Assembly: GCF_000012485.1 (NCBI RefSeq)
Contig: NC_007512.1
Coordinates: 1,055,001 to 1,119,000 of the forward strand
Direction of reading: 5' to 3'
DNA: 64,000 nt
From: Pelodictyon luteolum DSM 273
GTDB taxonomy: Bacteria > Bacteroidota > Chlorobiia > Chlorobiales > Chlorobiaceae
Shown piece by piece: positions 41,143 through 56,279 of this stretch. Both the position numbers and the translations under genes were made by a program. Below the pieces are notes generated by a model. The model made no database searches. It was not told the origin of the DNA and was given only the letters and a program-made list of their open reading frames with translations. Within the stretch, counting starts at the first letter, position 1; each line of letters opens with the position of its first letter.

Positions 41143-42975
41143 CTACTCGGTGTTGTAGACCATGTTCAGTTCCTTGTAGATGGCGTCGATCTCTTTTTCA
41201 TACAGTTCGAGTATGGTTTTGCGCTTCACCTTCAGGGTCGGCGTCATCAGGCCGTTTTCTATGGTGAAGGGCTCTTTTGCCAGAATGAAGCGACGCACCT
41301 TTTCGTGGGTGGCGAGCTGGCGGGAGATGCTGCGCAGGAGTTTTTCATAGATCTGTACGATCTCCTTGTGTGCACAGAGCCCGGCATCGTCCGGAGCCGT
41401 GATGCCTGCCGATGCTGCGAATTCCCTGAGTTTCTGGAAATCGGGGACGATGAGGGCAATGAGGAACGGGCGTTTTTCGCCGACCACCATCACCTGGTCT
41501 ACATAAGGATTTTCGGCAATCAGGTTTTCGATCGGCATCGGGGCGATGTTCTTGCCTCCGGAGGTGACGATGATGTGCTTTTTCCGGTCGGTGATCTTGA
41601 GGTAGCCGTCACCGTCGATTTCTCCGATGTCACCGCTGTGGAACCATCCGTCCCGAATCACCTCCGCGGTCGCCTCACGGTCCTGCCAGTATCCCTTCAT
41701 GATGTTGGGCCCCCTGAACAGGACCTCTCCGTCTTCGGCGATCTTCATCTCGACGTTGGCCACTGTCGGCCCCACGGTGCCGAATTTCACCTTTTCGGGC
41801 CGGTTGACATTGGTGATGGGCGAGGTCTCGGTCAGGCCGAACCCTTCGAGGATCGTGATGCCGAGAGCCTGGAAGAACTCGCCGGTTTTCTGCGGCAGGG
41901 CAGCGCCGCCGGACACGAAGTAGCGCAGCCGGCCGCCGAATCGTTTCTTGACCTTCTGGTAGACCAGTTTTCCAGCCACCGCATGCTGCAGGGTGAGGAG
42001 GGGTGAGGCACTGCCTTTTTTCTCAATGCTGCGGTGGTAGTGTTCTCCCCTCGAGACCGCCCAGTTGAAGATTTTCTGCTTCAGGGGGCTTTCCGTTGAG
42101 ATCTGCTTCTGCATGTTCGTCCTGATCCGGTCGAACAGCCTCGGAACGGTGAATATGATCGTGGGGCGTGCCTCGGTGATGTTCAGCGACACGGTCTCGA
42201 TGCTTTCGGCGAGGTAGATCGATGCACCGCAGGCAAAGAGCAGGTAGTAGCCCCCGGTCCGTTCATAGGCATGGGAGAGCGGGAGGAAGGAGAGGCTGCA
42301 GTCGGTTTCGTCGATGCGGATGATTTCTGCGGCCGATTTGACGTTTTCGCAGAGGTTGCGGTGTGTGAGCATGACCCCCTTGGGCAGGCCGGTGGTTCCG
42401 GATGTGTAGATGATGGTGGCGACGTCGTCAGGGTCGACTTTCGTGCCATCAAGCATCCAGGGCTTGTCAAGCAGCAGCTGCGTACCGGCAGCCTTGGCAT
42501 TGTTGAGGTCGATGACGTCCTCGACCGGTTCTTCCAGCCGGTTCATGACGATGAGCTGCGTCAGGTCGGGGAGGTTCTGCCAGATGGAGAGGATCTTGCC
42601 GAGCTGTAGCATGTTGGAGACGATGACGGCCCGTACACCGGCATCCTTCAGGATGTATTCTATCTGGTTTGGCGGCAGTGAGGGGTAGAGGGGTACGTCG
42701 ATCGCACCGAGGCTGAGGACCGCCATGTCGGCGAGGTACCATCCGGGGCGGTTTTCCGACAGGATGGCCACCCGGTCTCCGGCGGCCGTGCCGTTTTCTT
42801 TCAGATATGCCGAAAAACGCCGGACATCTTCATGGAAGTCATCGTAGGAGATGGGCTCGTAGGCGCTCTGGAGCTTGTGGGCAAATGGAAACCTTGCAGG
42901 CTGGCCGCGGTAGTGACTGAATACCGAAGCAAAGAGTTCCGGCAGGGTCTGGAAGTCGGGATTGATGAGGCCCAT
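41143..42975 (-). CDS. Long-chain acyl-CoA ligase (AMP-binding)
   Basis: 610 residues. P-loop-like [20 protein letters not shown] (about 192-211), [34 protein letters not shown] and the hinge/Lys region [20 protein letters not shown]. The size and the A5-A8 motifs match long-chain fatty-acid ligases (FadD15/ACSL-like). It activates fatty acids to acyl-CoA in the cytoplasm or at the membrane; in this organism it may salvage fatty acids for lipid synthesis. It is a single gene, convergent with the mutY-like gene. Confidence 0.88.
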
Positions 42976-43287
42976 CAGCGTATGAGGTTAACTTACGGGG
43001 GTAGCCATAGGGGATAACAGCGGGCCGTCCAGCACTGCAGGAGCCCTTCCCGGCCGGGACAATAAACAAATATGTAACAATACCTCGCTTCAATTCAAAA
43101 TGGGCGGGGGACAATTGTGATCTGTGAAGGGTTCCTGCAGTGTTGCAGTGAACAGCCCGCTCTCAAAAAGAAATTCGGCAAAATCTTGCCGATCTGTCGT
43201 AATGCCGTTATTTTGCCCTGCATCTCCCTCTGCGCCGGGGGTCTGTTCCGCCGGCACCGGGGTTTCAACCCAAGTTCCCTGAATCCT

Positions 43288-44370
43288 ATGCAGAAAGGCA
43301 AGCGGTCTGTTTCCAAATGGACGGGATACGTTGGCCTCGGCGCCGGTCTCGCTCTCATTGTTCTTCTGTTCCGTACCATCGACCTGCAGCGTTCGATCGA
43401 ACTCATCAGCTCGATCGGTTTCAGCTCGGTCTTCATCCTCCTGCCTTTTTTTGCCCTTCATTTCTTTGAAACGCTTGCATGGGTGGACGTCTTTCCTCCC
43501 GGTACCAAAGGGATACGGTTCTGGCGGCTCATGAAGATCCAGGTGATTGCAGAAACGGTTTCCATGACCCTGCCTGCAGGTGTTGCGGTGGGCGAGCCCC
43601 TGAGGCCCTATCTCTGCCACCGCCAGATGGGTATCGACACGCCGGTTGCGGTCGCTGCGGTTGCCGTGCGCAAACTGCTGCTCGGCGCCATGCAGGGCGT
43701 CTATACGGTCATCGGGGCCCTTGCGGGGTTCATGCTTCTGCAGCAGGTATCACAGGACCTTACCGGGTTCGGGGGCCTCGGCTACCTTATGCTGGCCGTC
43801 GGCACCGGGGTGTTTCTCATGTTCATGATCTTTCTCCTGCTGATCCTCAACGGCAATTCCGCTACGGCACTGCACCGTATGCTGATGCTTGTGCCGTTCG
43901 AGCGGGCAAGGGCGTGGCTGCTTCTGCGGGAATCGGGTTTCCAGGATACCGACCTGCATCTGCGCAGCTTCAGCAGCTCCTCACCCCTCCGCCTCCTTAA
44001 GGCGACCTTCTGGTACCTTCTCGGCTGGGCAATGCTTGCCTTTGAAAGCTACATCATCCTTCGCCTGCTCGGCGTCGCAATTTCTTTTCCCCAGGTACTT
44101 GCCATCGACACGACGCTCGTCATGCTCCGGGCCGTGTTTTTTTTCATCCCTTCGGGACTCGGCGTCCAGGATCTCGGGTATCTGGCATTCTTTCAGGCAA
44201 TCGGCATTCCGGACGCCATGGCATATGGCGGGGCGTTCATCCTCCTCAGGCGATTCAAGGAGGTGATCTGGTACTCTTCAGGCTATCTCTTGATGTTTCT
44301 CTCGGGGGTGCATATCTCTGATGCAGGGCGTATCGAAGGTCCAGCGCGTGTGAAGGGGGAGCAGCCATGA
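43288..44370 (+). CDS. Flippase-like / lysylphosphatidylglycerol synthase TM-region protein
   Basis: About 360 residues with 8-9 membrane helices, matching the UPF0104 (LPG synthase transmembrane, AglD/YbhN-like) family. Conserved features are SMTLPAGVAVGEPLRPYLCH near the start and FFFIPSGLGVQDLGYLAFFQ near the end. I chose the ATG at 43288; the frame opens 57 codons earlier with an unlikely N-terminus. These proteins move or modify lipid-linked glycans or lipids. It overlaps the next gene by 4 bp (ATGA) at the head of an LPS-type gene set. Confidence 0.75.
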   Translation: MQKGKRSVSKWTGYVGLGAGLALIVLLFRTIDLQRSIELISSIGFSSVFILLPFFALHFFETLAWVDVFPPGTKGIRFWRLMKIQVIAETVSMTLPAGVAVGEPLRPYLCHRQMGIDTPVAVAAVAVRKLLLGAMQGVYTVIGALAGFMLLQQVSQDLTGFGGLGYLMLAVGTGVFLMFMIFLLLILNGNSATALHRMLMLVPFERARAWLLLRESGFQDTDLHLRSFSSSSPLRLLKATFWYLLGWAMLAFESYIILRLLGVAISFPQVLAIDTTLVMLRAVFFFIPSGLGVQDLGYLAFFQAIGIPDAMAYGGAFILLRRFKEVIWYSSGYLLMFLSGVHISDAGRIEGPARVKGEQP

Positions 44371-45335
44371 AGAAGCGTGCGCTTTTCATCTGCGGTTCGA
44401 TGAACCAGACCACCCAGATGCACCAGATAGCCGAGAAGCTGCCTGAGTTCGATCGCTGGTTCTCCCCGTTTTATTCCGACGGCATCCTCGGGGCCGCGGC
44501 AGATGCGGGGCTCCTCGAGTTCACCATCATGGGACACAGCCGCAGGGAACGGGCAGTGAACTACCTGTTGGCAAACGAACTGCAGATTGATGCCGGGGGC
44601 GTCCTTCACGACTATGATCTCGTCGTCACCTGTACGGATCTCATCGTTCCCCGCAACATCCGCACACGCCGCATCGTACTCGTGCAGGAAGGGATGACGG
44701 AGCCCGAGACCGTCCTGTTTCATCTCGCCCGGAATTTCCGGTGGATCCCGCGCTGGATCGCCGGTACGGCGACAACGGGTCTGTCGGGCGCCTACAGCAG
44801 GTTCTGCGTTGCCAGCGAGGGGTACCGGGACCTGTTCATCCGCAAAGGTGTCGATCCCGCAAAGATGGTGGTGACGAGCATGCCGAACTTCGACGACTGC
44901 CGTCGGTACCTCGAAAATGATTTCGAGCACCACGGCTACGTGCTCGCCTGCACCTCCGACAACCGCGAGACCTTCATCTACGAAAACCGGCGCCGGCATA
45001 TCGAGCGCTGCCTTGAACTGGCCGGTGGAGGACAGCTCATCTTCAAGCTGCACCCCAACGAATATGCCCGGCGCGCCACCGCTGAAATAGAGCGCTACGC
45101 TCCCGGGTGCCTCGTCTACAGCGAAGGGCGGACCGAAGAGATGATTGCCAATGCACGGATGTTGATTGCGCAGTTTTCATCCACTATCTTTGTGGGTTCA
45201 GCACTCAAGAAGGAGGTGCATTGCGGACTTTCTTCCGAAGAACTCAAACGGCTCACGCCGGAGCAGAACCGTTCTGCAGCCCGGAGGATAGCCGATGTCT
45301 GCCGTCTTGTAGCCGACGGAAATCCCGACCAGTAA
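44367..45335 (+). CDS. GT-B-like surface polysaccharide transferase (CDP-glycerol transferase/KpsC-like)
   Basis: A 322-residue soluble protein without signal peptide. The N-terminal half has ALFICGSMNQTTQMHQIAEK and LVVTCTDLIVPRNIRTRRIV. The C-terminal half has QLIFKLHPNEYARRATAEIE, a KxHP-type nucleotide-sugar loop as in CDP-glycerol glycerophosphotransferases and KpsC-type transferases, and LIAQFSSTIFVGSALKKEV. I infer a role in LPS or capsule assembly from the neighbours. The donor sugar is unknown. It is coupled to the upstream membrane protein gene. Confidence 0.6.
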   Translation: MKKRALFICGSMNQTTQMHQIAEKLPEFDRWFSPFYSDGILGAAADAGLLEFTIMGHSRRERAVNYLLANELQIDAGGVLHDYDLVVTCTDLIVPRNIRTRRIVLVQEGMTEPETVLFHLARNFRWIPRWIAGTATTGLSGAYSRFCVASEGYRDLFIRKGVDPAKMVVTSMPNFDDCRRYLENDFEHHGYVLACTSDNRETFIYENRRRHIERCLELAGGGQLIFKLHPNEYARRATAEIERYAPGCLVYSEGRTEEMIANARMLIAQFSSTIFVGSALKKEVHCGLSSEELKRLTPEQNRSAARRIADVCRLVADGNPDQ

Positions 45336-45352
45336 ACACCGGACCCTACACC

Positions 45353-46060
45353 ATGCACACTGTTGCCGTCATCCCGGCAAGGGGTGGCTCCAAAGGCCTG
45401 CCCGGTAAGAACATCCACCCTGTGGCGGGCCGCCCTCTCCTCGCCTGGAGCATCATGCAGGCCCGCTCTGCCCATTCTGTCGAGAGGGTCGTTGTGTCGA
45501 CCGATGACGGGGCTATCGCCGATGTTGCCCTTCGGTACGGGGCCGAAGTGGTCCGGCGCCCCCCCGAGCTGTCGGGCGATACCGCCACCTCTGAATCCGC
45601 CATCCTCCACACCCTCGACACCCTTGCCGCCGGCGGTGCCCCGGATCCCGACGCCGTGGTGTTTCTTCAGGCGACCTCTCCGCTCCGGAAGCCCGATGAT
45701 ATCGACCTGGCAGTGGAGCGCTTCATGACGGAGAAAGCCGATTCCCTCATTTCCCTCACGCGTGCAGACGACCTGACCATCTGGGAGGAGGCAGAAACCG
45801 GCTGGCAGAGCGTCAACTTCGACTGGCGGAACCGCGGCATGCGCCAGGACCGTCCGGCGCAGTACATCGAGAATGGCTCCATCTACATATTCAGCCCCCG
45901 TATTCTCAGGGAGACCGGCAATCGCATCGGCGGAAAGCTTGCGGCCTACCCGATGGAGTTCTGGCAGACCTGGGAGATCGACACCGTCGAAGAAATAGCC
46001 TTAATTGAATTCTTTCTGAAGAGCAAAGGGCTTGCGGCCCCACAGCCCGTCAACCCTTAA
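45353..46060 (+). CDS. CMP-sugar synthetase, NeuA family
   Basis: A 235-residue cytidylyltransferase. The CTP loop is VIPARGGSKGLPGKNIHPVA, then RVVVSTDDGAIADVALRYGA and VVFLQATSPLRKPDDIDLAV. C-terminal WEIDTVEEIALIEFFLKSK is typical of the acylneuraminate cytidylyltransferase family. The direct neighbours are KdnB- and KdnA-like genes, so its likely product is CMP-8-amino-3,8-dideoxy-Kdo or a related ulosonic acid. In Shewanella the equivalent step uses a KdsB-type enzyme, so use of a NeuA-type enzyme would be a variation. The ATG at 45353 is the family-like start. Confidence 0.78.
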   Translation: MHTVAVIPARGGSKGLPGKNIHPVAGRPLLAWSIMQARSAHSVERVVVSTDDGAIADVALRYGAEVVRRPPELSGDTATSESAILHTLDTLAAGGAPDPDAVVFLQATSPLRKPDDIDLAVERFMTEKADSLISLTRADDLTIWEEAETGWQSVNFDWRNRGMRQDRPAQYIENGSIYIFSPRILRETGNRIGGKLAAYPMEFWQTWEIDTVEEIALIEFFLKSKGLAAPQPVNP

Positions 46061-46079
46061 CCACCAACCCGAATAACCC

Positions 46080-47210
46080 ATGCAATTCTTTCTTTCCACG
46101 GACATCACCATCGGGGTGCATGAAGCGCTCTCGATCCATCCGCACCTGGCATCTTTGCGGGTTTCACGTCCAGGCATCATCCATGATGCCGCCATTGCCG
46201 ATTCCCCCTATTTCAGGGACGTATTGAAGAACCTCACGGCAGCCAGTCCCGGGGCCGTCGTCTACTGCAACGACTTCAAGGGTGAGCCGACCTACCGCCA
46301 TCTTGAGGATGTCGCCGGTTTTTTCCGCCCGAAAGCGATTGACTCCGTCATCGCCATCGGCGGCGGCAGCACCATGGACCTTGGCAAGGGCATCGCCCTT
46401 CTCATGACAAACGAGGTGCCGGCTCTTTCCCTGAAAGGGTTCCCGGCCGATGTCCTTGACCCGCTTCCGCTCATCACCGTGCCCTCCCTTCTCGGCAGCG
46501 GTGCGGAGGTCAGCTACAATGCCGTCTTCATCGACGAGGACGCCGGGCGCAAGCTCGGCATCAACAGCCGGAAGAACTTCCCGAAAAAGTGCGTCATCGA
46601 CCCCCAGCTCTCCATGACTGCGCCGACGGAGAGCGTCATCGCCTCGGCGATGGACAGCCTGGTGCACTGTGTCGACAGCTTCGGTTCCGTGAAGCATACC
46701 CCGCTGAGCAGGATTTTCTCCATAGAAGGGTTCCGCCGCACCTTCTATGCTCTGGTGCAGGACCAGCTCGACCGGGCAGAGTCGAGAATCGACCTTGCCA
46801 TCGGCAGCGTCTGCGGTACGGCTGCGCTCATGAACTCCGGAGACGGCCCGACCAACGGCTTTGCATACTACCTCGGTGTCCGGCACCGGGTGCCGCACGG
46901 CCTTGCCGGCGCAATCTTCCTCAAGGAGGTCATGCGCTACAACCATCTGCAGGGATATGATAAATACGCAATGCTGAACCCCACCGGAGCCTGCAGCACT
47001 CAGAGTGACGCCACCGCAGAGCTTCTTGCCGAGATGGACACCATCTATCGTCGTTACCGTATTGCGAACCTGGTGCCATACGGCTACGGCAGCGGCAACG
47101 CTGCTGAGTTTGCCCGCGAAGCTTCGGGTGCCCTGCAGGGGTCGTTTTCCGGCAACCCTGTTCCATTTGACGGCGCTGCTGCTGAGGCGGTGGTCCGCAA
47201 TCTGGTCTGA
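46080..47210 (+). CDS. kdnB: KdnB-like iron-containing dehydrogenase (3-deoxy-octulosonate 8-oxidase type)
   Basis: A 376-residue group III metal ADH. The nucleotide motif is VIAIGGGSTMDLGKGIALLM and the metal histidines lie in MDSLVHCVDSFGS and VRHRVPHGLAGAIFLKEV. The sequence is much diverged from the butanol dehydrogenase at 13238-14425. It is followed by a KdnA-like aminotransferase, the arrangement of the Shewanella oneidensis Kdo8N pathway, where KdnB oxidises C-8 of Kdo. I assign the name mainly by that pairing; the enzyme could act on another sugar acid. Confidence 0.68.
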   Translation: MQFFLSTDITIGVHEALSIHPHLASLRVSRPGIIHDAAIADSPYFRDVLKNLTAASPGAVVYCNDFKGEPTYRHLEDVAGFFRPKAIDSVIAIGGGSTMDLGKGIALLMTNEVPALSLKGFPADVLDPLPLITVPSLLGSGAEVSYNAVFIDEDAGRKLGINSRKNFPKKCVIDPQLSMTAPTESVIASAMDSLVHCVDSFGSVKHTPLSRIFSIEGFRRTFYALVQDQLDRAESRIDLAIGSVCGTAALMNSGDGPTNGFAYYLGVRHRVPHGLAGAIFLKEVMRYNHLQGYDKYAMLNPTGACSTQSDATAELLAEMDTIYRRYRIANLVPYGYGSGNAAEFAREASGALQGSFSGNPVPFDGAAAEAVVRNLV

Positions 47211-47249
47211 ATCGAACATCATCAACATAACAATCAACCACATACCATT

Positions 47250-48407
47250 ATGGCTGGCGCAGAACTGATCGGCCGCGAAGAACTCGCTGAAATACAGGAG
47301 CTGTTCAACAAAGAGAAGGTGAACCTCTACCGCTACGGCGGGGGCAATTACAAGGCACGGGAGTTTGAGGAGAAATTCGCGGCATGGATGGGGGTGAAAT
47401 ACGCCCACGCCGTGTCGTCGGGAACGGCGGCCATCCACTGCGCGCTTGCCGGTTCCGGCATCGGACCGGGAGACGAGGTGATCACGACAGCATGGACCTT
47501 CATCGCCCCCATCGAAGCAATCAGCGCCCTCGGTGCTGTTCCTGTCCCCGTTGAGCTTGATGAAACCTACCACCTCGATCCTCTTGAGGTTGAAAAGGCC
47601 ATAACCCCGAAAACAAAGGCGGTTGTTGCCGTTCCCATGTGGGCATCGCCGAAGATGGATGAGCTTGCCGAGATCTGCCGACGTCACAACCTGACGCTTG
47701 TCGAGGATGCCGCACAGGCGCTCGGGGCTACCTACAAAGGCAGGAAGCTCGGCACCATTGGCCGTGTCGGTTCGTTCTCGTTCGATGCAGGCAAGACGCT
47801 GCATACCGGAGAGGGCGGCATCATCATCACCAACGATCGTGACATCTACGACCGTGCAGCAGAGTTTTCCGACCACGGACACATGCACCTCGAGGGCCTG
47901 CCGCGCGGCAAGGATCCACGCCGGGCTAAAGGGCTCAACCTGCGCCTGAGTGAAGTGACCGCCGCCATCGGTCTCGGCCAGCTTTCCAAAATCGACTTCA
48001 TCCTCCGGAAAGCCAAAGAGAACAAGAAACAGATCAAGGACGCCATCCGGCACCTCCCGAACATCACCCTCCGTCCGTTTGCCGACGAGGATGGTTCTCA
48101 GGGCGATACCCTGATCTTCCGGGTCCGCGACCGTGAGGCGGCTCTCGGCTTCGAAGCGCATCTTATGGGGAAAGGATTCGGCACGAAAATCCTGCCCGAA
48201 GCCCTTGACTGGCACTTCGCCGGTGTCTGGGACCACCTTCTGAAGGCCTATGACCGTTACAGCGACAAAGACCTTGAGTCGCTCTGGCCGAAAACCGGCG
48301 CAATGCTCCGCAGCAGCATCTGCCTGAACATTCCGGTCCTCATGGATGATGACACGATAGCGCGGTTGAGCGCTGCCATCATTGCAGCGGCTGAAGAGAT
48401 GGGATAG
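47250..48407 (+). CDS. kdnA: KdnA-like aminotransferase (8-amino-3,8-dideoxy-octulosonate)
   Basis: A 385-residue DegT/DnrJ/EryC1-family PLP enzyme. The PLP lysine is in SFSFDAGKTLHTGEGGIIIT; other conserved segments are HAVSSGTAAIHCALAGSGIG, LVEDAAQALGATYKGRKLGT and FSDHGHMHLEG. The motif runs FSDHGH..., GLNLRLSEVTAAIGLGQLSKID resemble Shewanella KdnA closely by memory. Together with KdnB and the NeuA-like enzyme it would make CMP-8-amino-Kdo, an LPS core sugar that adds positive charge. The terminator lies 45 bp downstream. Confidence 0.72.
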   Translation: MAGAELIGREELAEIQELFNKEKVNLYRYGGGNYKAREFEEKFAAWMGVKYAHAVSSGTAAIHCALAGSGIGPGDEVITTAWTFIAPIEAISALGAVPVPVELDETYHLDPLEVEKAITPKTKAVVAVPMWASPKMDELAEICRRHNLTLVEDAAQALGATYKGRKLGTIGRVGSFSFDAGKTLHTGEGGIIITNDRDIYDRAAEFSDHGHMHLEGLPRGKDPRRAKGLNLRLSEVTAAIGLGQLSKIDFILRKAKENKKQIKDAIRHLPNITLRPFADEDGSQGDTLIFRVRDREAALGFEAHLMGKGFGTKILPEALDWHFAGVWDHLLKAYDRYSDKDLESLWPKTGAMLRSSICLNIPVLMDDDTIARLSAAIIAAAEEMG

Positions 48408-48706: not shown

Positions 48707-49333
48707 TCAATAGTACCATGCCACTCCGGCCACGATGGCTGAGGATTCGATGCCGGCGTTCGCCCGGTCGGCGATATTGCCGTGCGAGAGATGTCTGAAC
48801 CGGTAGCCGGTAAAGATTGCCATATCAGGTGATACGCGGTACTGGAGCCCTGCGCCTGCATGCGTGAGGAAGTTGAACCCCGAATGGCCCTGCTCCAGCG
48901 TGTCTATGCTGAGGTACATAGGCGCAATACCTGTTTCGGTATAGATCTCTATGGAGCGGTTCAGGGTATGCAGGTATCGCAGGCCGAGTCCGCAACCCGT
49001 TTCGACGCCGGTTTCCGGGTCCATGATGGTGTTGACGAATGGTTCTAGGGTAAACTGCAGCGAACTGCTGTTCCCCTTGATGCCGAAGAGCGGGTTCATG
49101 TTGAACCCGATTCTGACGAAAGCCGGGATAGCGGTGAGGCCATCGTGTGTTTCTTTCAGCGATCCCCACATGTAGCCGCTCCCGATGGCCAGTTCGGTGC
49201 GGTAGCTTCCGGGTGCTGTGTCCCTGTTTTCGTCTTGTTCGGATTCTGCGGCATTGCCTGTAACGGGAAGCAAGAGCCATACGGCCAGAAAGATGGCAAG
49301 AAGCCTGCTGCAGGGGTTAGTGTTCAGCTGCAT
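48707..49333 (-). CDS. pagL: PagL-like lipid A 3-O-deacylase (acyloxyacyl hydrolase family)
   Basis: A 208-residue outer-membrane enzyme. Signal peptide residues 1-28 (MQLNTNPCSRLLAIFLAVWL...) are followed by a beta-barrel pattern. The C-terminal segment RFRHLSHGNIADRANAGIES carries a His (about 181), Ser (about 183) and Glu (about 196) like the PagL catalytic triad. The ATG at 49333 is used, 18 codons inside the open frame, where the signal peptide begins. It removes the 3-O acyl chain of lipid A. It follows the Kdo8N genes but on the other strand, so it is a separate unit, though the theme is shared LPS modification. Confidence 0.82.
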   Translation of the reverse strand: MQLNTNPCSRLLAIFLAVWLLLPVTGNAAESEQDENRDTAPGSYRTELAIGSGYMWGSLKETHDGLTAIPAFVRIGFNMNPLFGIKGNSSSLQFTLEPFVNTIMDPETGVETGCGLGLRYLHTLNRSIEIYTETGIAPMYLSIDTLEQGHSGFNFLTHAGAGLQYRVSPDMAIFTGYRFRHLSHGNIADRANAGIESSAIVAGVAWYY

Positions 49334-49627
49334 GGTGAATGGTTGTTTTCGTGTGCAAATGGAGGCCTGTTGTGGTCGGTTCTCCAATTAATTGCTGCAA
49401 CTTCAGTGCCACAGTGAAAGGCGTGGCAGGCTGCATCGGGGTATCGGCACGTCGGAAATCAAGGATGTGCTGTTTCTTTGTGTCCCTTAGCCTCAATCTG
49501 GCGAAGGGCTTCGATGATATCGTGAGCAGTTGCTTCTGCAATGGGGCGAGATCCGGGGAGCGGGAGGATATATCGCTTCATGCGGGAATGAATCATACGG
49601 GCGTGGCCTTTGGAGCAGTCCGTAGCG

Positions 49628-51420: not shown

Positions 51421-52362
51421 ATGCTACATCGCAAGCACATGAACGCTCTGGCTGCAGGATTGCTTTTTGCCGCTGGAACATCTTTCCAGTGTGATTCCGC
51501 TATCGGGGCCGACAGGTATCAGAAACCGGCTGACGAAATATGCGTCGAGGGCGGCATTGAGTCCTATTACACGCAATACAATTTCAACAGGACCCGTGAG
51601 GAGGGCACTATCCCGGATGGCAGCGGGTACTATCTCTTTTCGCTTCCTCTTACCCTCGAAGCGCGTCACTACCTCAGTGATGCCATCTACCTTGCTCCCT
51701 ACGCCAGGGCGAGCATAACCTATGATTTTGCTGACAAGCCGCTGAACAGGAGTTACTGGAACAATAATCAGGTCTTTGCCGGCAGCTTGAAGCTCACGAC
51801 CCAGCATTCATTCATGAACAGGTCGGATGAGTATGTCGGCGGCATCAGTGCCTCGCTGTTTTCGCAATACGAGGTGATGACTTCATCCTTCGACCGGTCG
51901 AAAGATCGGGTTCCCGCCGGTATAGAGCGCCAGAACGTCAAGAGCGGCCTCTCCTTCTGGTTTTCAACCCAGAAACCGCTTAACCCGAAATTCCGGGTCT
52001 GGACGGAAAGCTGGGGTGAGCTGGCATGGCATACTGCGGCCTTCAGTGATGAGGGAGAGGACGATTTTCTGATTGGATCCCTCTCATCGAAGATCGGCAC
52101 CGGCGTCAATATCGCCCATGCTTCCTTTGAACCCTATGTCACGGTCGACCTGGTAAATGATTTCCTGGACAGGGATTGGAACAGGGCTTCCTGGTTCAAC
52201 AACGTGCAGTACGGACCCGGTGCAAGGCTGGTGCTTGACCATTACCTGCCGGGAAATGTCTCGATCTATATGGAGTACCTGTTCGTCAGCTACTTTGACA
52301 CCCCGCAGGATCAGGACCATGACATCAAGGCCGGGATTTCCTGCTGGATTCCGATTTTCTGA
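51421..52362 (+). CDS. Outer-membrane beta-barrel protein of the exopolysaccharide cluster (NfrA/PgaA C-terminal-like)
   Basis: A 313-residue secreted protein. Signal peptide 1 to about 30 (HMNALAAGLLFAAGTSFQCD). The rest is built of alternating amphipathic strands (YYLFSLPLTLEARHYL, YLAPYARASITYDF, GLSFWFSTQKPLNPKFRVW) ending in the hydrophobic KAGISCWIPIF, typical for an outer-membrane barrel. It resembles the barrel part of PgaA/NfrA-type export proteins but lacks a TPR domain. It is the first gene of a cluster with a GT2 synthase and a deacetylase. Confidence 0.65.
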   Translation: MLHRKHMNALAAGLLFAAGTSFQCDSAIGADRYQKPADEICVEGGIESYYTQYNFNRTREEGTIPDGSGYYLFSLPLTLEARHYLSDAIYLAPYARASITYDFADKPLNRSYWNNNQVFAGSLKLTTQHSFMNRSDEYVGGISASLFSQYEVMTSSFDRSKDRVPAGIERQNVKSGLSFWFSTQKPLNPKFRVWTESWGELAWHTAAFSDEGEDDFLIGSLSSKIGTGVNIAHASFEPYVTVDLVNDFLDRDWNRASWFNNVQYGPGARLVLDHYLPGNVSIYMEYLFVSYFDTPQDQDHDIKAGISCWIPIF

Positions 52363-52394
52363 AAGCAATGAACAACCTGCTCTTAGGAGGCACA

Positions 52395-53753
52395 ATGATC
52401 GAGACTGCATCAATCCATCTTTCAGGGCCGCTCTCTGAAGCTTCGCCCTTCAGACTCAGGCATCCGGGAGCCGTCATTCTATCCGCGATCATCTCACTGC
52501 TGGTTTCCATGGGAATCTGGAGTTTCATGCCCGGGTGGGTCGACTCGCTCAATGTTCTCATCTGGGGTAATCCGACCCGGTCATTTCCCGTATGGATGCA
52601 TCAGGTGCTCGACATGTTCTTCCTGATCTATCTTGCGGGGTCGCTCTTTCCGTTCCTCTTTTTCATCGGCCTTACCATGCTGCCCGAAAGGAGGATTGCA
52701 GGCAATACCTCGCTTCCGTTCGTATCGGTCATCATTCCCTCCTTCAATGAGGAGGACAGCATTGCCCAGTGCATAGAGTCGGCTCTGGCTCTCGATTACC
52801 CGGCATACGAGATCATCATCGTTGATGACGGCTCGCGGGACCTCACCCTGCCAATCATCGAGCGATATGATGTTTCCGTTATACGGCTGCGCACCAACAG
52901 GGGAAAGGTTGAGGCGCTGAACCGGGGAATTGAAAAGGCAAAGGGTGAAATCATCTTTTTTACTGATTCCGATTCATCGCTTGATCCGAAGGTTCTCCGC
53001 TACCTTGTGGCAGGCTTCAGTGATGACACTGTCGGTGCGGTTGCCGGGATGGTGCTGCCGAAGCGGCACAACAGTTACCTCCTCAGGATGCAGACCATCG
53101 AGTATATCTATGGCCAGAGCATCATCAAGAAGGCGCAGCTGAAGTCGGGCGGCGCAGTGAGCATATGCCCGGGCCCTGCCACCGCTTTCCGGCGCAGCGT
53201 ACTGCTTGAGACTGGCGGGTACAGGAACAGGACTCTGGCTGAGGATTTCGACATAACGCTTGAAATGATGGAGTTGGGCTACCGTGCTGTCTACGAGCCG
53301 AGAGCCGTTTCATATACGTCGGCGATGACTGGCTGGAAGGGCCTCCGCAAGCAGCGCATACGCTGGTCAAGGGGCCATCTCCAGGTTTACCGTGAGCACC
53401 GGGGGATGATGTTTTCGGACATCGGCGGTCCCATCAGCCTGTTCTGGATGCCATGGTCGCTGTTCATCGGATATGGAAGTGCATTTCTGGAAATGGCTTT
53501 TCTCGGCGTCTATCCGCTGCTCGTCATCATTTCCTCGATGCCGCTCCTGTTCCTGAAGCTTGGGCTGTCATACATGGTGATCCTGGAGTGCATCAGCGCA
53601 ATGCAGGGCATCATACCCCTCATGCAGGCACGCAGGCTGACCCCGTCTCTCGCTCTTGCTTCATTTACAACGCAGCCCTATCGCATTGTCCTGAGCTATA
53701 TGCGCATTGTCGCCTATACCCACGAAATGCAGGAACGCAGCAATACCTGGTAA
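52395..53753 (+). CDS. Processive GT2 glycosyltransferase (PgaC/HasA-like)
   Basis: A 452-residue inner-membrane synthase. Two N-terminal membrane helices precede the GT2 domain, with VDDGSRD (Asp144/145), metal-binding TDSDSS (Asp191/193), acceptor motif LAEDFD (Asp about 284) and the processive QRIRWSRG (Q(Q/R)xRW, about 320-325). Several C-terminal helices follow. AGGAGG immediately upstream selects the ATG at 52395 over the ATG at 52368. This is the catalytic subunit expected for a beta-linked GlcNAc or hyaluronan-like polymer. The next gene, a deacetylase, favours GlcNAc. Confidence 0.85.
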   Translation: MIETASIHLSGPLSEASPFRLRHPGAVILSAIISLLVSMGIWSFMPGWVDSLNVLIWGNPTRSFPVWMHQVLDMFFLIYLAGSLFPFLFFIGLTMLPERRIAGNTSLPFVSVIIPSFNEEDSIAQCIESALALDYPAYEIIIVDDGSRDLTLPIIERYDVSVIRLRTNRGKVEALNRGIEKAKGEIIFFTDSDSSLDPKVLRYLVAGFSDDTVGAVAGMVLPKRHNSYLLRMQTIEYIYGQSIIKKAQLKSGGAVSICPGPATAFRRSVLLETGGYRNRTLAEDFDITLEMMELGYRAVYEPRAVSYTSAMTGWKGLRKQRIRWSRGHLQVYREHRGMMFSDIGGPISLFWMPWSLFIGYGSAFLEMAFLGVYPLLVIISSMPLLFLKLGLSYMVILECISAMQGIIPLMQARRLTPSLALASFTTQPYRIVLSYMRIVAYTHEMQERSNTW

Positions 53754-53786
53754 CAAACCGCAATCATTCAACCCTTGGAGCCTATC

Positions 53787-56279
53787 ATGAAGAGCCTCAT
53801 TCTGACGGCATGCATCCTTGTGTCACTGTTTGCATCATTGACAGCCTCTGCATCAAAGCCGGTGCCTGCTCCCGTGCTTCTCACGCTCGATACAGAGCTC
53901 GATGGTGATGTTCTGGCACTCAATACGCTTGGCATTGATGTGCCTGCAACATATTTCATAACAGGGAAATTTGCTGTGGCATATCCGGAACTTGTCGCCA
54001 AGCTTGCAGCGGCAGGCAACACCATCGGGTCACATTCCCATGCCCACCCGCATCTTCCGGCTCTTTCACAGGACTCTCTGGAGCATGAAATCCGCATATC
54101 AAAGACGATCCTGGAATCGGTGACCAAAAAGCCCGTTGTCTGGTTTCGTTCGCCCTATATGGAATACGACCTCCGCGCAATGAAAGCACTCAAGGCACAG
54201 GGATTCCTGTATGACAGCTCGGATTCAGAGCACTGGGAGGAACAGTCTGTGCTGGCTGAGCTGCCGATTTCCGACATACGCCGCGGAGCCATGCTTGCTT
54301 CTGATTACGACCTGATCATCGAGCAGCATATGAAGGAAAATGAGTTTGAGGATGCCTTAAAGGAGCTGTACCGGACGAAGAGCATCCTTGGCCAGCCGGC
54401 AGTCATTCTGCTGCATCCGAAAAATGCTGCCATCTATCCAAAAGCGCTTCAGAATTTCATCGGTTTCGTGAAAAATGAAGGCGGACGGTTCGTAACTGCC
54501 GATCAGTATGTCGCAGAAATGCAGGCTCATAAGCCAAGCCGTTACGCTCTTTGGGTTGATTTCAGCGAGGGCGGAATGCCCTCACCTGAATACATTGCCG
54601 CGAATCTGGCCAGGACATCGGTCACCGACGTGTTTCTTATGGCAAAGGATGCCGAGGGGACCTTTTACTATGGACCGAAAAGCGCCGACGACGTATTTGG
54701 CCGCACCCTTGCACTCCTGCGCAAGCAGGGACTGAAGATTAAGGTGCATGCATGGCTTCCCGCACTCTCTGATGGCCGGGCGCTCAAAAAGCACCATAGC
54801 TGGGCCATGACCGCCCAGAACGGGCGCCTTTCGGCACACTGGATGTCACCGGCCAACCCGGAAGTAGCTGCATACATGAAATCCACCGTTACAGATATCA
54901 TCAGGAACTACGGGGTGGAGGGCATCCATCTTGACCGCCTGTCCTATCCTGACCTTGATTACGACTACAGCAGGGAGAACATCAGGGCGTTTGCCGCGGC
55001 AAAGGGACTTGGTTCCGTTCCGGCTCTCAATGAGCTCCTGACCCTCCATTACAACTCCTGGGTCAACTGGCGGAGCATGCGGGTGAGTGAATATGCCGCG
55101 AAAGTCGGTGAAGCCGTCAGAAAGGCCGGAAACGAGGATGTTGAATATTCTGCAGAGATGCAGGGTAAGCGCGTCTTCAACTTCAATGATGTTGCGCTCT
55201 CAGGCCAGGAAGTGTCGCTGCTGGCACAGTCTTTTGATTTTATTGTGCCGATGCTCGAGGTTTCCGCTACTCTGGAAGATCGTGAGCTGATCGAGCGGAC
55301 CATTGCCTCATTCAGAATCAGGGCGGGAGAAAAGCCCCTCATCATGCGGGTTATGCTCCCCTCCAGCGGCAGAACTGTTTCGCCGGAGTACCTGTCAGGT
55401 GTTCTCGGCGCTCTTTCCAGAGGTGGTGAGGGCATGGGTTTCTCATCCTATCAGGCTGTTTTCGGGAGTCAGAGGGGCGGGAGGAGCATTGATGAGGGTA
55501 ACCTCGACGCCATCAACCGGGTGTTCGGGGGGGCGGGGCTGAAGCCGTTCGTCATGCCTCATCAGCCAGGTACCCTTACGTTCTTCAACATACCTGTTCT
55601 GCCCGGTGTCTTTACCCTGATGATGGCTGTGGTTCTCAATATGGTGGCAATGCCCGTATTCGGCAGGAAGACCCTTGAGAATGGTACCGACGGCATGATG
55701 TATGCGGAGCCGGAGGGTGATTCAGGCTGGCGGGAGATAGGGTCCAGAACCCATGCGGGGCTTCTGGACGGCCCTTCTGCAGAGCAGATCTGCAGCATGC
55801 TGCGCAGTTACGATGCCCGCGGGGTTCATCAGAACAGAATTATCCTCGTGCTCGATACCATCTCCCGGCCGGGTGCTCCGATGCCCCGCCTGTATGAGAT
55901 CGTGTCCGGTTCAATGGAGTGGAAGTCCCTTGCCCTCAAGTACTTCCATGAGGTATGCCTGCTTGGATATGCCGAGATCGACGACCGTAATGTCACGTTG
56001 ACGTCCGAGGGTTGGAGGATGCTTGAGGGTGCCCGCAAGGAGGGCTTCGATGCACCGTTCTGGTCATTCATGGAAGAGCGCCTCCATGAGACGGTTTTGG
56101 TCAGGTGCCCGCATTGCGGGGCTGAGAATGTTACCAGCTTCTACTGGCAGACCTTTGAGTGCAATGAGTGCGGGAAGGTTCAGCGTCTGGGTGAATCATC
56201 GGTGGTGGCGGTCCGCACTCCTGCAGGGAGCGTCTACAGCAGCGATACAGTCCAAACGCCTGAAGCCACTTCCCTGTGA
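53787..56279 (+). CDS. PgaB-like polysaccharide deacetylase/glycoside hydrolase with TM and zinc-ribbon tail
   Basis: 830 residues. Signal peptide 1-24. NodB domain (about 28-255) has TLDTE (Asp35), HSHAH (83-87) and FRSPY (120-124). A GHL10/GH153-like TIM-barrel follows (about 260-595, VEGIHLDRLSYPDLDYDYS). A transmembrane helix (about 602-625, PGVFTLMMAVVLNMVAMPVF) leads to a cytoplasmic tail of about 200 residues ending in a Cys4 zinc ribbon (CPHCG at 774-777, CNEC at 792-795). PgaB normally is an outer-membrane lipoprotein without such a tail. It should deacetylate the polymer in the periplasm. The tail is duplicated in 57477-58265. Confidence 0.75.
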   Translation: MKSLILTACILVSLFASLTASASKPVPAPVLLTLDTELDGDVLALNTLGIDVPATYFITGKFAVAYPELVAKLAAAGNTIGSHSHAHPHLPALSQDSLEHEIRISKTILESVTKKPVVWFRSPYMEYDLRAMKALKAQGFLYDSSDSEHWEEQSVLAELPISDIRRGAMLASDYDLIIEQHMKENEFEDALKELYRTKSILGQPAVILLHPKNAAIYPKALQNFIGFVKNEGGRFVTADQYVAEMQAHKPSRYALWVDFSEGGMPSPEYIAANLARTSVTDVFLMAKDAEGTFYYGPKSADDVFGRTLALLRKQGLKIKVHAWLPALSDGRALKKHHSWAMTAQNGRLSAHWMSPANPEVAAYMKSTVTDIIRNYGVEGIHLDRLSYPDLDYDYSRENIRAFAAAKGLGSVPALNELLTLHYNSWVNWRSMRVSEYAAKVGEAVRKAGNEDVEYSAEMQGKRVFNFNDVALSGQEVSLLAQSFDFIVPMLEVSATLEDRELIERTIASFRIRAGEKPLIMRVMLPSSGRTVSPEYLSGVLGALSRGGEGMGFSSYQAVFGSQRGGRSIDEGNLDAINRVFGGAGLKPFVMPHQPGTLTFFNIPVLPGVFTLMMAVVLNMVAMPVFGRKTLENGTDGMMYAEPEGDSGWREIGSRTHAGLLDGPSAEQICSMLRSYDARGVHQNRIILVLDTISRPGAPMPRLYEIVSGSMEWKSLALKYFHEVCLLGYAEIDDRNVTLTSEGWRMLEGARKEGFDAPFWSFMEERLHETVLVRCPHCGAENVTSFYWQTFECNECGKVQRLGESSVVAVRTPAGSVYSSDTVQTPEATSL

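Follow-up and report, generated by a model that had tools for sequence, protein, structure and literature searches.

Gene content of the locus

The window, a 64,000-nt stretch of DNA analysed as a whole, belongs to the genome of Pelodictyon luteolum DSM 273, a single contig of 2,364,842 bp. Three adjacent genes had been claimed at 45353-48407 in a sequence-only reading, and intact open reading frames lie exactly at 45353-46060, 46080-47210 and 47250-48407, all on the forward strand, with 19 and 39 bp between them. Upstream, the frame of a GT-B-fold protein stops 17 bp short of the first of them and is itself overlapped by 4 bp by the frame of a flippase-like protein. In view of this overlap and the short gap, the unit is taken to be a run of five genes, which read 5′ to 3′ as flippase-like, GT-B, NeuA, Fe-ADH and KdnA.

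41143-42975, reverse strand: long-chain acyl-CoA synthetase-like gene, divergent, a conserved neighbour (function named from sequence only)
43117-44370, forward strand: flippase-like membrane protein (LPG_synthase_TM / HpnL-like; Pfam PF03706, E 6.5e-28), first gene of the run
44367-45335, forward strand: GT-B-fold protein, probable CMP-sugar (nonulosonate) transferase (fold model; homology to the GT of SpsF-NeuB clusters)
45353-46060, forward strand: NeuA/PseF-type CMP-sugar synthetase (Pfam CTP_transf_3; NeuA among solved matches)
46080-47210, forward strand: iron-type alcohol dehydrogenase (Fe-ADH), not KdnB (Pfam PF00465)
47250-48407, forward strand: KdnA-like DegT-family PLP aminotransferase (DegT family scan; Shewanella KdnA, SoKdnA, as top solved match)

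Each of the five Chlorobiaceae loci with long flanks has the acyl-CoA synthetase-like gene next to the cassette, at 71-77% identity, and the gene may be regarded as a conserved neighbour and at most a putative member of the pathway. Just downstream of the cassette, on the opposite strand (48707-49387), lies a gene for a PagL-family (lipid A 3-O-deacylase) outer-membrane protein. Further along, at 51421-56279, open reading frames picked out by eye encode in succession a putative outer-membrane protein, a synthase resembling GT2 enzymes and a protein resembling polysaccharide deacetylases, an arrangement that recalls poly-GlcNAc (Pga) systems.

Conservation across Chlorobiaceae

The cassette is real and family-wide in Chlorobiaceae. 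Orthologues of NeuA were found in all 44 Chlorobiaceae genomes sampled (61-100% identity) and nowhere outside the family in this sample, while Fe-ADH was present in 43 of the 44 and the aminotransferase in 42. The missing downstream genes are explained by contig ends, since Fe-ADH in one genome (G110) and NeuA in another (G153) stop less than 50 bases from one. Outside the family, a comparable Fe-ADH was seen within this sample only in genome G131, at locus L041. Gene order from acyl-CoA synthetase through flippase, GT, NeuA and Fe-ADH to KdnA is constant in the five loci with long flanks, and the flippase-to-KdnA order recurs in the Chlorobiaceae loci among 80 GT loci fetched. Assignment of the DNA to a green sulfur bacterium proved right: the cassette proteins are 79-99% identical to those of Pelodictyon luteolum isolate CIII, the nearest named record found.

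A NeuA-type synthetase

The CMP-sugar synthetase had been called NeuA-like and not KdsB-like, and the comparisons agree. Its top solved matches are NeuA proteins (122 and 112 bits) versus 38 bits or less for KdsB, and it carries an ARGGSKG motif where KdsB of the same genome has ARLDSSRLP. The best NCBIfam match is PseF, at 114 bits, below the PseF cut-off. The genome has only three CTP_transf_3 genes, namely KdsB, the cassette NeuA-type gene and IspD, with no SpsF among them.

Fe-ADH and aminotransferase compared with the Kdo8N pathway

The label KdnB-like, previously attached to the second gene, has to be withdrawn. Its product is an Fe-ADH, but Shewanella KdnB (SoKdnB, 5k8c) ranks only 23rd of its 41 solved matches with 60 bits, versus 367 bits to the same chain for a yardstick KdnB from Bacteroidota (L046), whose gene adjoins kdsB, kdnA and waaA. 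The closest relative found outside Chlorobiaceae is the L041 protein, at 35% identity. In the cassette enzyme, this relative and KdnB alike, a Tyr replaces the His of the solved Fe-ADHs shown, a residue that we take to be a metal ligand. Assignment to Kdo8N by direct homology was rejected on the KdnB comparison.

Calling the third gene KdnA-like was correct as to nearest solved match, SoKdnA (5k8b) leading at 275 bits with the next at 170. Relative to the KdnA clade that occurs with kdsB and kdnB, it probably forms a sister group: a Bacteroidota KdnA encoded beside kdsB, kdnB and waaA reaches 470 bits to SoKdnA versus 275 for the cassette enzyme. In a tree of 23 sequences, where the long L041 branch makes the grouping a hint only, the Chlorobiaceae proteins group with the homologue from L041 (support 95/92), apart from SoKdnA and every kdnB-linked protein, which lie across the split (94/92). 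At L041 the nearest relatives of Fe-ADH and of the aminotransferase sit in a NeuB/NeuA cluster, which speaks for a nonulosonate pathway.

Elsewhere in Bacteroidota, KdnA occurs near a KdnB-type Fe-ADH at five loci (L042, L043, L046, L049 and L054), three of which (L042, L046 and L054) also hold kdsB; these genomes likely belong to Kdo8N producers outside Shewanella.

In a Kdo8N pathway, Fe-ADH would oxidise C8 of Kdo, the KdnA homologue would aminate it, and the NeuA-type enzyme would form CMP-Kdo8N for LPS or another glycan. Such a route fits the lead of 105 bits that SoKdnA holds among solved matches, the identical pairing of enzyme classes, the Tyr shared with KdnB in place of the metal-binding His, and the availability of Kdo, kdsA being in the genome. 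We nonetheless consider it unlikely. Fe-ADH lies outside the KdnB family, the cassette contains no KdsB-type synthetase gene, and GT and flippase belong with NeuB and ceramide clusters. Canonical kdsB, kdsA and waaA are present at places unlinked to the cassette, and a standard kdsB had been named beforehand as part of a result that would speak against Kdo8N. What survives of the proposed match to Shewanella is the chemistry: a sugar acid that is oxidised, transaminated and then activated with CMP by a NeuA-type enzyme is still the best account of these genes, but the route from Kdo through Kdo8N to LPS found no support. Nor did the suggested LPS destination with its resistance to cationic peptides. 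The GT-B and flippase neighbours point to NeuB-type nonulosonate and sphingolipid synthesis. The case for Kdo8N and LPS is weaker than that for an amino-nonulosonate pathway, probably lipid-linked, and KdnA homology alone should not be taken as a sign of Kdo8N.

NeuB, its phosphatase and related clusters

The P. luteolum genome also encodes a NeuB-type synthase (257 bits to PF03102), whose gene overlaps that of a KdsC-family HAD phosphatase. Both occur in all 44 Chlorobiaceae sampled, and NeuB is widespread in the phylum as well. The phosphatase matches the KDN-9-phosphate phosphatase BT1713 best, scoring 139 bits in the family KDN-9-PPhBT against a cut-off of 180, and a Glu and a Lys that presumably set the specificity of BT1713 are found at the aligned positions. 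Because of this resemblance and these two residues, KDN would be the simplest product of NeuB and HAD. Among the papers searched, none linked Chlorobium to nonulosonates.

A second KdsC-like HAD is encoded beside kdsA at about 2,282 kb (L006:868-1443) and has PxD instead of the DxD nucleophile motif. Because of this replacement it may have lost its activity, and dephosphorylation of Kdo-8-phosphate may likewise depend on the HAD beside NeuB.

Counting against an amino-nonulosonate pathway, NeuB and HAD lie 340 kb from the cassette, and across the phylum they occur without a cassette-type NeuA. The latter also ruled out NeuB and the cassette NeuA as a simple co-inherited pair.

Elsewhere in the phylum, the CTP_transf_3 gene linked to NeuB and HAD is SpsF-like. 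The cluster of these relatives runs flippase-like, GT, SpsF, (transketolase halves), class III aminotransferase, SDR, HAD, NeuB, fatty-acid hydroxylase. Its GT is homologous to the GT-B protein of the window (44-59% identical), and in several relatives it is preceded by a gene 29-44% identical to the flippase-like gene at 43117-44370. A complete SpsF-NeuB set lies on one contig in another family of the same order (L139), and a further mix, DegT with SDR, an SpsF-like protein and NeuB, is found in Syntrophobacteraceae (L164). Three genomes from elsewhere in the order have an orthologue of the class III aminotransferase, which was not found in the six Chlorobiaceae tested. Since these six lack it and P. 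luteolum itself lacks SpsF, the cassette looks like a remodelled cluster, in which NeuA would have replaced SpsF, and Fe-ADH with the KdnA-like enzyme would have replaced SDR and the class III aminotransferase. Retention of NeuB and HAD in a genome devoid of both SpsF and the class III aminotransferase leaves NeuA as the sole CMP-synthetase candidate besides KdsB. An amino-nonulosonate is proposed mainly because complete clusters pair one dehydrogenase with one PLP aminotransferase.

The GT-B protein

Family scans gave no Pfam or NCBIfam match for the GT-B protein. Its AlphaFold model (35 sequences, pLDDT 92) adopts a GT-B fold whose best matches are UDP-GlcNAc 2-epimerases including NeuC (Z 17-18, up to 17.9), followed by TagF (Z about 15) and a polysialyltransferase (Z 14.6). 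The model fits a nucleotide-sugar enzyme, with the reaction left unfixed by the fold. Assignment of a specific GT activity by sequence or fold was abandoned, as there is no family match and the fold search leads to the GT-B superfamily only. We regard the protein as a probable CMP-sugar (nonulosonate) transferase. The leading fold matches would also suit a role like that of NeuC, as an epimerase or hydrolase providing NeuB with its substrate, which we think very improbable given that the protein has no Pfam match at all, that conserved TSDxRET and KLHPNE motifs, identified by eye, bear an Asp at what we take to be the place of the epimerase catalytic His, and that the gene is found in ceramide clusters without NeuB.

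A probable connection to sphingolipids

A scan of 84,980 species genomes for relatives of the GT returned at least 515 stretches. Sorted by gene content, the best 80 comprise 34 of SpsF/aminotransferase type, 25 of Chlorobiaceae type, 13 of ceramide type and 8 unassigned. The ceramide-type loci, from other phyla, contain varying sets of FAAL–ACP–alpha-oxoamine-synthase fusions, epimerase-type reductases and GNAT proteins. Caulobacter builds ceramide with Spt, the reductase CerR and the acyltransferase bCerS (PMC11087976), and the genes of these loci are consistent with that set. No NeuB or CMP-synthetase match was seen beside the GT in the ceramide-type loci among the 80, which counts against an amino-nonulosonate.

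At seven loci (L153, L159, L163, L187, L196, L198 and L217), genes for FAAL-ACP-alpha-oxoamine synthase proteins occur together with the GT, a GNAT and ABC transporters. Such FAAL-ACP loci, from Planctomycetota, Verrucomicrobiota and Burkholderiales, apparently represent an ACP-dependent variant of ceramide-type synthesis.

By homology only, the genes for a ceramide backbone are present in P. luteolum. It encodes an SPT (379 bits to Sphingobacterium SPT, below the NCBIfam cut-off) with an adjoining gene for an epimerase-type, CerR-like reductase, as well as a bCerS-like GNAT homologous to that of the ceramide clusters (E 8e-82). At L172, the GT locus also encodes a protein that has 48% identity to this SPT. 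An aminoglycosphingolipid from Chlorobium limicola is on record (Jensen et al. 1991, as cited in PMC11762602). Among the papers searched, none assigned genes or a pathway to this lipid or named its sugar.

Proposed pathway

Taken together, the cassette is read as the part of a nonulosonate pathway that aminates, activates and transfers the sugar, a nine-carbon acid of the sialic-acid type, probably with ceramide or sphingolipid as its destination. We consider this proposal evenly poised. Gene content, order, conservation and homology are its observed basis, from which we infer what each enzyme catalyses, that C9 is the site of amination, that amination comes before CMP activation, and that ceramide is the acceptor. 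Outside the cassette, NeuB would condense a phosphosugar with PEP, and the KDN-9-phosphate-phosphatase-like HAD would remove the phosphate to give, most simply, KDN. Fe-ADH (46080-47210) would then oxidise a hydroxyl, most likely the terminal one at C9, and the KdnA-like enzyme (47250-48407) would transaminate the resulting aldehyde to an amino-nonulosonate such as 9-amino-9-deoxy-KDN. Conversion to the CMP-sugar would fall to the NeuA-type enzyme (45353-46060), transfer to a lipid, probably ceramide, to the GT-B protein (44367-45335), and movement of the product to the flippase-like protein (43117-44370). The nearest characterised relative of the KdnA homologue acts on Kdo, which counts against this scheme, as do the scores of HAD and SPT below their cut-offs, the long branches in the L041 grouping and a GT-B fold that does not settle the reaction.

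The site of amination may also differ. Substrates of DegT aminotransferases are usually ketosugars, and the sugar of the Chlorobium lipid is said to be neuraminic acid; both would suit enzymes that act on a nonulosonate but aminate another carbon (e.g., C5, C7 or C8), yielding neuraminic acid or a related sugar. Opposed to this are KdnA, the closest characterised relative of the aminotransferase, which aminates a terminal carbon, and the habit of Fe-ADHs, which mostly oxidise primary alcohols. We judge amination away from C9 to be improbable.

Returning to amination at C9, the product is perhaps the head group of the aminoglycosphingolipid of 1991. Neuraminic acid and 9-amino-9-deoxy-KDN are isomers (C9H17NO8). 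In its full form, namely that the cassette makes a terminal-amino nonulosonate such as 9-amino-9-deoxy-KDN as the head group of this lipid and that such amination evolved at least twice, the proposal is tentative and less likely than not. To our knowledge, terminal-amino nonulosonates are not an established class of natural sugars.

If the proposed pathway is correct, it would assign genes to a lipid known from green sulfur bacteria since 1991, predict a new amino sugar and place KdnA-type amination outside LPS Kdo. This type of amination would then have arisen on at least two occasions from enzyme pairs unrelated to each other, Fe-ADH with a KdnA-like enzyme and SDR with a class III aminotransferase. 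The GT family, whose relatives in the scanned genomes number at least 515, would be the marker of a so far unrecognised glycosphingolipid pathway that occurs in several phyla. Should the sugar indeed have been assigned as neuraminic acid, the reported structure would be an isomer of the true one.

Comparison with known systems

The Kdo8N pathway of Shewanella oneidensis (KdnB, KdnA, KdsB) shares with the cassette a single run of Fe-ADH, KdnA-like aminotransferase and CMP-sugar synthetase, and the two aminotransferases are homologous along most of their length. In the cassette, however, Fe-ADH is not KdnB, the synthetase is of NeuA and not KdsB type, the aminotransferase probably belongs to a sister clade of KdnA, and the neighbours come from nonulosonate and lipid pathways.

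The aminoglycosphingolipid of Chlorobium limicola is a sphingolipid bearing an amino sugar and comes from a member of the same family. It is known as a lipid, and no gene was found assigned to it.

The KDN pathway of Bacteroides thetaiotaomicron, presumably BT1713-BT1715, likewise combines a NeuB-type synthase, a BT1713-like HAD phosphatase and a NeuA-type synthetase. In P. luteolum, by contrast, NeuA is unlinked from NeuB and HAD, and HAD scores under the curated cut-off. We know of no amination genes in the Bacteroides pathway.

The SpsF-NeuB cluster of Ignavibacteria and other Chlorobiales has GT and flippase homologues arranged as in the cassette, the same NeuB and HAD, and likewise one dehydrogenase, one aminotransferase and one enzyme of the CMP-synthetase family. 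These last three belong to families different from those of the cassette. The cluster often includes transketolase halves and a fatty-acid hydroxylase, and its genes form a single cluster, whereas those of P. luteolum are split between sites.
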